Source: Sulfurovum sp.
GTDB lineage: Bacteria > Campylobacterota > Campylobacteria > Campylobacterales > Sulfurovaceae
Length of the DNA stretch: 35,752 bases
Direction of reading: 5' to 3'
Assembly: GCA_026996325.1 (NCBI GenBank)
Contig: JALWLU010000171.1
Span: 1 to 35,752 of the forward strand
The notes below the pieces were generated by a model that worked only from the letters and a program-made list of their open reading frames with translations, did not search any database and was not told where the DNA came from. Below are positions 21,232-23,556 of the stretch, piece by piece (the first letter of the stretch is position 1; each line of letters opens with the position of its first letter). A program made the translations under genes and the position numbers.

Positions 21232-21942
21232 TTGCAGAAAGATAAGGTCTTTGCCAGCCCTATAGAGAAGAAATTCGAATTTGACAGTGCAGTTGCGGCT
21301 GTTTTTGACGATATGCTCTCCCGATCTGTCCCTTTCTATGATGAGGTGCGCAGACTCATCATTTCGCTGATCCTATCCGATGCCCGAGATGGGCTGCGTG
21401 TGCTTGACCTTGGATCCTCCACAGCGAAATTTCTGATCGATCTTCACAGCAAGTCGCATGTGCCCCTGAAGCTTACCGGTATTGACAACTCACCGGCGAT
21501 GCTGGAGCGTGCCAAACAGAAGAGTCAGGCGTTCGGTGCGGATATTACTCTGAAACTGGCGGATATGCTCACCTACGATTTTGGGAAAAAGGATGTCATT
21601 GTCGCGAACTACACGCTGCAGTTCATCCGTCCGCTTCAGCGTACCCGGCTGGTAGAGCGTATCTCCGGTGCGTTGGAGGAGGGGGGTATGTTCATCTTCT
21701 CCGAAAAGGTGGTCTTTGAAGAGAAGAAACTTGACAAGCAGATGATCGACATTTACTACGAATATAAGCGTTCACAAGGCTACAGCGAATTTGAGATTGC
21801 ACAGAAGCGTGAAGCGTTGGAGAATGTCCTTGTTCCCTTTACGATCGAAGAGAATATCCATATGTGCAAAGAGGCGGGCTTTACCCATGTCGATACCATT
21901 TTTCAGTGGGCGAACTTCGTGACATTCGTGGCGAAAAAGTAA
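21232..21942 (+). CDS. cmoA: Carboxy-S-adenosyl-L-methionine synthase (CmoA-like)
   Basis: A 236-residue Rossmann-fold enzyme that converts SAM and prephenate to carboxy-SAM for wobble uridine (cmo5U) modification of tRNA. The diagnostic N-terminus is [20 protein letters not shown] followed by [12 protein letters not shown]. The SAM motif is [11 protein letters not shown], followed by [11 protein letters not shown] and [14 protein letters not shown]. Of the possible starts, TTG at 21232 is chosen because AAGGAG lies 6 bases upstream; GTG at 21229 is also possible. The length is close to E. coli CmoA (247). In Campylobacter the homologue directly follows ribF. No cmoB gene is visible in the window. 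Confidence 0.9.
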
Positions 21943-21968
21943 CACTTCTTTGCTCTTTGCCGTCCTTT

Positions 21969-22108
21969 CGGGCTTCATTATTTAATATGAGTTATTCACC
22001 ACTTATTCACCATGTGAAAAAGTCATGCGCTGAAAGTGACGTCCAGAGCGGGGTTTATTATTTAATATCACTTCTTCACACCTTTTTCACCGTGTGAAAT
22101 GTGAAAAT
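21969..22108. repeat. Tandem 51-bp repeat (period 80) with clustered TTCAC/GTGAA boxes
   Basis: Two direct copies, 21969-22019 and 22049-22099, match at about 42 of 51 positions and are spaced exactly 80 bases apart. Each copy has ATTATTTAATAT, then two direct TTCAC boxes 11 bases apart, the second forming the palindrome TTCAC-N3-GTGAA (22006-22018 and 22086-22098). The first copy holds two perfect TTATTCACC sites (21992-22000 and 22003-22011). A further GTGAA lies at 22101-22105, giving seven TTCAC/GTGAA cores in about 110 bases, followed by the AT-rich AAAATTTTTTAACATATTTT. TTATTCACN resembles epsilonproteobacterial DnaA boxes. A transcription-factor operator for the downstream aro gene is the alternative. 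Confidence 0.7.
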
Positions 22109-22167
22109 TTTTTAACATATTTTCAGGATTGTCTGCTAAAGCGTACTCTTTTTCATCGTTTTTCGGC

Positions 22168-22173
22168 TATAAT
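22168..22173 (+). promoter_or_regulatory. TATAAT -10 element for the DAHP synthase gene
   Basis: A perfect TATAAT after TTTTTCGGC lies 33 bases before the ATG at 22207. An AAGGAAG ribosome binding site is at 22194-22200. The repeat cluster ends about 60 bases upstream of this box. Confidence 0.55.
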
Positions 22174-22206
22174 CTTCGCAATTTATTTTATGCAAGGAAG
22201 CAACCT

Positions 22207-23556
22207 ATGAGCTGGACACCCCAAAGCTGGAGAGATTTTCCCATCAAACAGCAACCCACCTATCCCGACAAAGAGGCGCTTGAACGTGTGGAGCAGGAAC
22301 TCAAGCACTACCCGCCGCTGATCTTTGCAGGAGAGGCACGAAGACTCAAAGAGAAGCTTGCTGCCGCGGGACGCGGTGAAGCTTTTCTGCTTCAGGGCGG
22401 CGACTGTGCCGAGAGCTTTGCGGACTTCAACGCGCAGAACATCAAGAACCTCTTCAAGCTGATGCTGCAGATGAACATGGTGCTGATGTACTCTACCGGC
22501 AAGCCGGTGGTAAAGGTGGGACGTATCGCAGGGCAGTTCGCCAAGCCAAGATCGTCTGATTTCGAAGAGAAAAATGGTGTCAAATTGCCAAGCTACCGCG
22601 GTGACATCATCAACTCCATCGAGTTTACCGAAGAGGCACGCGTTCCGAAACCTGAGAATATGCTTCGTGCCTACAACCAGTCTGCAGCCACGCTCAACCT
22701 GTTGCGTGCCTTTTCACGCGGAGGTCTGGCAGACCTGAACAAGGTTCACCAGTGGAACCTCGACTTTATCAAGGACAACCCGCTGGGCAAGCGCTACGAT
22801 GAACTCAGCGACAAGATAGACCGTGCGATGAAGTTTATGGCTGCGTGTGGACTCACAAGCGACATCGTTCCACAGCTGCACCAGACAACACTCTATACGT
22901 CACACGAAGCACTGCTGCTCAATTACGAAGAGGCGCTTACGCGTAAAGACAGTGAAACGGGTGAGTGGTACGACTGCTCTGCGCATATGCTCTGGGTCGG
23001 TGACAGAACGCGCGATCTGAACGAAGCGCACATCGAATACTTCAGAGGCATCCAGAACCCGGTAGGGTGTAAAGTCGGACCGACGATGCAGCCGGATGAA
23101 CTGCTGCAGCTGATCGATGCGCTCAATCCTGAAAACGAAGAGGGAAGGCTCAACCTCATTGTCCGTATGGGAGCGGACAAGATTGCCGAACTCTATCCAC
23201 CGCTGCTTGAAGTCGTACGTGATGCAGGTAAAAACGTTGTCTGGACGATCGATCCGATGCACGGCAATGTGGAGAAGTCCTCTACAGGTTTCAAGACAAG
23301 AGACTTCGACAACATCCTCTCCGAAGTGAAGCAGTTTTTCCAGATACATCAGGAGATGGGAACGGTCGCAGCGGGCATCCATCTGGAGATGACAGGAAAC
23401 GATGTGACAGAGTGTACGGGAAGTACGTCGTGTGCCATTACCGCAGAAGGGCTTGCAAGCCGCTACCACACACAGTGTGATCCTCGTCTGAACGCGTCAC
23501 AGGCGCTTGAGCTTGCCTTCATGATCTCCGATACGATCTGCGACAACTGCAACTAA
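22207..23556 (+). CDS. aroG: Class II 3-deoxy-7-phosphoheptulonate synthase
   Basis: A 449-residue DAHP synthase of the plant-like class II type. It condenses phosphoenolpyruvate and erythrose 4-phosphate in the first step of the shikimate pathway. Features are the start [28 protein letters not shown] (Cys metal ligand), [56 protein letters not shown] and the C-terminal [15 protein letters not shown]. Length fits the class (about 450). The reading frame is open 26 codons further upstream, but that part contains the promoter, so the start at 22207 with its AAGGAAG ribosome binding site is used. The symbol is given for function only; class II enzymes are also called aroF or aroH. It is followed by a strong terminator. 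Confidence 0.96.

Follow-up and report, generated by a model that had tools for sequence, protein, structure and literature searches.

The locus lies in a Sulfurovum-type MAG (G000; 1.84 Mb in 223 contigs, 84.6% complete), within a window of 35,752 nucleotides, the whole stretch of DNA that was analyzed. A directly repeated array of putative DnaA boxes is located in the intergenic region between cmoA and an aroG-type gene, both of its units falling within positions 21969-22105. Each unit follows the plan TTATTCAC-N3-TTATTCAC-N3-GTGAA, in which two boxes in the same direction are followed by an inverted one (> > <). The features are as follows.

21232-21942, + strand: cmoA, carboxy-SAM synthase (NCBIfam TIGR00740 equivalog, 229 bits against a cut-off of 193; start codon uncertain)
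21969-22019, + strand: unit 1, an AT-rich element followed by a three-box module; direct repeat copy 1
21969-21990, + strand: conserved element preceding the boxes, CGGGCTTCATTATTTAATATGA; genus consensus GGGTTNCATTWTTTAATATGAG, from an alignment of 41 units
21992-22000, + strand: putative DnaA box 1, TTATTCACC; a perfect box
22003-22011, + strand: putative DnaA box 2, TTATTCACC; a perfect box, 11 bp after box 1
22014-22021, - strand: putative DnaA box 3, inverted, GTGAAAAA; its core faces box 2 across 3 bp and is invariant in an alignment of 10
22049-22099, + strand: unit 2, with the layout of unit 1, 80 bp downstream; direct repeat copy 2
22072-22079, + strand: putative DnaA box 4, TTCTTCAC, degenerate; the corresponding place is TTATTCAC in L004 and L005
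22083-22090, + strand: putative DnaA box 5, TTTTTCAC; TTCAC core
22094-22101, - strand: putative DnaA box 6, inverted, core GTGAA; half of TTCAC-N3-GTGAA
22101-22108, - strand: box 7, an additional inverted core GTGAA 7 bp after box 6, conserved in some close relatives but not in all
22170-22175, + strand: probable aroG -10 element TATAAT, 32 bases before the ATG; in 50 triad-bearing relatives TATAAT precedes the ATG by 32-65 bases, a count that includes regions partly chosen by pattern (L114-L143)
22207-23556, + strand: aroG-type gene, class II DAHP synthase (TIGR01358 and PF01474)

The frequencies quoted below are taken instead from the genus search and the exact-triad search. A promoter and terminator scan of the cmoA-aroG intergenic region returned nothing.

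The repeat is as first described: two 51-bp copies (21969-22019 and 22049-22099, 82% identical) at a spacing of exactly 80 bp, seven TTCAC cores (+ strand at 21995, 22006, 22075, and 22086; - strand at 22014-22018, 22094-22098, and 22101-22105), the palindromes, and an AT-rich tract directly after the array at approximately 22104-22125. The only perfect TTATTCAC boxes in the window are the two at 21992 and 22003, and as 8-mers alone these are unremarkable (2 observed against 0.95 expected in 35 kb). The palindrome TTCAC-N3-GTGAA occurs twice in the window against an expectation of 0.04, both times within the array. Conservation was assessed by searching 78 genomes of the genus for TTATTCACNNNTTATTCACNNNGTGAA with up to 3 mismatches, with the reversed pattern as control. 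Matches were obtained in 59 of the 78, and the control yielded 5 matches in all. It is therefore the arrangement of the boxes and its conservation, rather than the two perfect 8-mers, that exceed chance, and the view of the preliminary description that the array is no accident is borne out.

Where the loci were fetched, 29 of 30 lie at aroG and nearly all adjoin cmoA too, while several genomes giving no match carry a close variant, GTTATTCACCCCTCTTTCACCCCTGTGAATAAC, with a 4-bp gap. The exact three-box triad, TTCAC-N6/7-TTCAC-N3-GTGAA, is also present between cmoA and aroG in four further genera of Sulfurovaceae (g18, g82, g83, and g84; 20 loci examined). In ten aligned two-unit arrays all box cores are invariant and the sequence between units drifts; likewise, in the alignment of 41 units the box columns are fixed and the spacers variable. 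Two exact units at aroG are separated by 80, 91, or 92 bp (83 in g18), so that the common pair spacings, 80 and 91, differ by approximately one helical turn. The GGGTTNCATTWTTTAATATGAG element precedes each aroG unit in the genus (in the window at 21969-21990 and 22049-22070) and is conserved like the boxes. It occurs only twice in the complete genome of the relative G015, both times at aroG, and has no copy in the compact variant with the 4-bp gap. The element could serve as an additional promoter or as a site of DNA bending, or it may be recognized by a partner protein. A second AT element with a triad, as if copied, was observed in one Sulfurovum genome at G011:C28:112096 (L275 4097), just 5' of a small antitoxin-like ORF; the single loci L275 and L276 and the coding-sequence matches L368 and L369 were left out of the argument.

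Footprinted DnaA boxes of Campylobacterota have the common core TTCAC and the best form TTATTCACN, and the origins oriC1 and oriC2 flank dnaA (PMC5043019). The proposal that the sites resemble DnaA boxes fits this published core, and within a given genome the box architecture of the array recurs in oriC1, beside dnaA. In the ruvC-dnaA region of Sulfurovum, TCATTCACACCTTTGTTCACATAGTGAATAA displays the > > < plan with N7 and N3 spacers, and the MAG carries a triad at C99:6137, adjoining dnaA. Among 299 Campylobacterales genomes searched, 158 gave the exact triad; matches to the reversed pattern were few. The copies that could be placed mapped almost all at ruvC-dnaA. In several families two triads are located at oriC1, 76-79, 88, or 100-101 bp apart. 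In family f13 a relaxed search revealed a variant with N5 at dnaA, and in families f8 and f16 it gave nothing convincing at that gene. Judged by sequence, the triad is a module of oriC1 that recurs, doubled, at another site as the aroG array, since placeable matches lie almost all at ruvC-dnaA and the module is doubled there in several families. The array thus has in common with oriC1 of Campylobacterota the box core and the > > < triad with its N6/7 and N3 spacers, a triad that at oriC1 is also doubled at about 78 or 101 bp in some families (PMC5043019). It differs in lying between cmoA and aroG, at 0.18-0.39 of the chromosome from dnaA, in having a conserved AT element of its own, and, in G015, in its better boxes. 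When G015 was scanned for near-perfect boxes, the aroG array ranked first, with 5 perfect boxes within 150 bp, followed by oriC1 with 2. Other box-dense places in this genome are mostly tandem CTATTCA heptamers. Short arrays of this kind, which mimic DnaA boxes in a naive scan, were observed on G015:C1 at approximately 314.5, 315.05, 402.6, 490.06, and 2039.1 kb. Species with footprinted DnaA belong to groups in which the exact triad is rare, and the link to DnaA therefore rests on box sequence and oriC1 location, which strongly argue that DnaA would bind at the aroG array.

It was also suggested at first that the array might be an accessory origin region, and the complete genome of G015 (2,209,694 bp) was read whole for GC skew and box scans. 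The cumulative GC skew of this genome reaches a single minimum, at dnaA, and peaks once, at 1.13 Mb; the aroG array is at 1.760 of 2.210 Mb. Within the window the skew is positive throughout, with no sign change. A DnaA-trio resembling CTACTACTAC, with up to 2 mismatches, is absent in or beside the array, whereas oriC2 of the relatives has the trio CTACTACTACGTACTA after a box. Because the skew turns at dnaA, keeps its sign in the window, and no DnaA-trio or DUE of the oriC2 kind is present, the array is not regarded as an origin. That it serves as an accessory or second origin is very improbable, even though it is the densest DnaA-box cluster of G015 and is followed by an AT-rich tract.

Taken from this observed arrangement, its conservation, its identity of plan with oriC1, and its non-origin position, the main reading is that of an extra-origin DnaA-binding array of two oriC1-type modules acting on DnaA itself, to which a probability of about 0.5 is assigned. 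DnaA probably docks at the array to tune its own activity, aroG, or both, as the array shares its three-box plan with the site beside dnaA. DnaA would occupy a pair of direct boxes separated by one helical turn, together with one inverted box facing them. The spacing of the modules, 80 bp here and one helical turn more, 91 bp, in other species, would bring two DnaA assemblies together. Positioned away from the origin, the array would most likely be a sink for DnaA, or a place at which its nucleotide state changes, in the manner of datA or DARS, with any influence on the nearby aroG promoter coming as a further output. The binding of DnaA and both outputs, on DnaA and on aroG, are thus predicted from the observed features. 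The best reading of the role is datA/DARS-like, the array presumably buffering or resetting DnaA, while by the features compared it is a member of neither, and membership in the DARS or datA family is not claimed.

The comparison with the known loci is as follows. The DARS core consists of three boxes, with box I opposed to boxes II and III (PMC5742627); in E. coli MG1655, DARS1 is TTATCCACT-ATTCC-TGTGGATAA-CCA-TGTGTATTA, with the plan > < <. Like the cores of DARS1 and DARS2 (PMC5742627), the triad has three boxes with one opposed at a non-origin locus, and when reversed it also reads > < <. The spacing of DARS1/2 is not found in the array: in DARS1 the two opposed boxes start 14 bp from each other, whereas in the triad the figure is about 10, 4 bp closer, and no Fis/IHF region was seen at the array. 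Since the triad is common to oriC1, it is not specific to reactivation. With datA of E. coli and the analogous clusters of Bacillus and Streptomyces, the array has in common a non-origin position, direct boxes, and a location away from the terminus (PMC5742627). In datA an IHF site lies among the boxes and the essential boxes all point in one direction (PMC5742627), whereas one of the three boxes is inverted in the array. An IHF site matching the E. coli consensus with up to 1 mismatch is absent within 21900-22230, a consensus that may not match Sulfurovum IHF. The absence of an IHF-type site near the array counts against the main reading, as does an oriC distance that differs between genomes: 0.18-0.20 of the chromosome from dnaA in G015, G023, G041, and G062, approximately 0.26 in G102, and 0.39 in G057. 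In E. coli, datA and DARS each keep a conserved relative distance from oriC (PMC5010248). Set beside those loci, this measure is suggestive, not decisive.

The alternative that survives best is that of a DnaA-controlled promoter, in which the array would switch aroG according to DnaA level or replication state and any effects on DnaA supply would be incidental. It is considered possible, although doubtful as the primary role. In Sulfurovum and the four further genera the array is always located just 5' of aroG in constant orientation. G088 is the one genome in which these two genes are separated and a triad survives; there it has remained beside aroG, and cmoA, located elsewhere, adjoins no triad. 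This observation also weighs against the main reading. In G005 and G087, where the two genes are likewise separated, the triad is absent at both. The triad also lies 5' of the dnaA promoter, where autoregulation would be expected, and its orientation to the downstream gene is equal at oriC1 and aroG, which fits a promoter role equally well. Against control of aroG as the primary role, the distance from array to aroG -10 spans 32-197 bp across relatives, and g19, a sister genus within Sulfurovaceae, lacks an exact triad at aroG and has an extra one at fabD-mtnN (L336, L337, L339, L342, and L366). Moreover, no reason is known for a tie between DAHP synthase and DnaA, and a literature search found no link. 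Campylobacter-like genera of f10 also carry a non-dnaA triad, at dnaB/maf or rpsO/rsm loci. The extra triads elsewhere in g19 and f10 and the variable distance to the -10 element argue for a role untied to aroG, and the absence of the triad from all other aromatic genes of the MAG and G015 likewise favors a control locus. It should be noted that the extra-origin control locus and a DnaA operator are compatible and not mutually exclusive, the former being judged the more probable.

In Campylobacter-like genera (L286-L288 and L300-L304), a conserved stretch like AAAATACCTTAAAATAGCACTTTAAGCTT comes after the non-dnaA triad, at loci that differ by genus (dnaB/maf, rpsO/rsm, or ferritin). The identification of this element as difH was rejected on comparison with published difH sequences.

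It is improbable that the array serves as an operator for a transcription factor dedicated to aromatic metabolism that recognizes TTATTCAC-like half sites by chance. TTCAC-N3-GTGAA is indeed palindromic and located 5' of a biosynthetic gene, but a coincidence would be needed for box sequence, spacing, and pair distance to be common to oriC1 across many families. A search for the triad at other aromatic genes of the MAG and G015, in line with a check raised in the preliminary description, placed the exact triad only at aroG and beside dnaA at oriC1, which favors DnaA. That aroG has a structured RNA leader or an attenuator here is most unlikely: the palindromes account for a folding energy of 21945-22206 that lies 3.4 sd below that of shuffled sequences, a double change is seen in only 1 of the 17 consensus pairs, box pairs never vary, there is no Rfam match, and the probable -10 element lies downstream of the array.

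In the literature on Campylobacterota replication that was searched, the DnaA boxes reported are those at dnaA and others that are scattered and have no known role, with no defined extra-origin control locus, and neither datA nor DARS is described in the phylum. It may tentatively be proposed that Campylobacterota control replication through dispersed copies of the oriC1 module, one extra per lineage (in aroG, fabD-mtnN, dnaB, or rpsO neighborhoods), which would reset or titrate DnaA and link it to the expression of biosynthetic genes. The conserved, precisely built non-origin array is a concrete locus for deletion, relocation, and footprinting, and the three-box module common to oriC1 and extra-origin sites provides a way to find such loci across the phylum.
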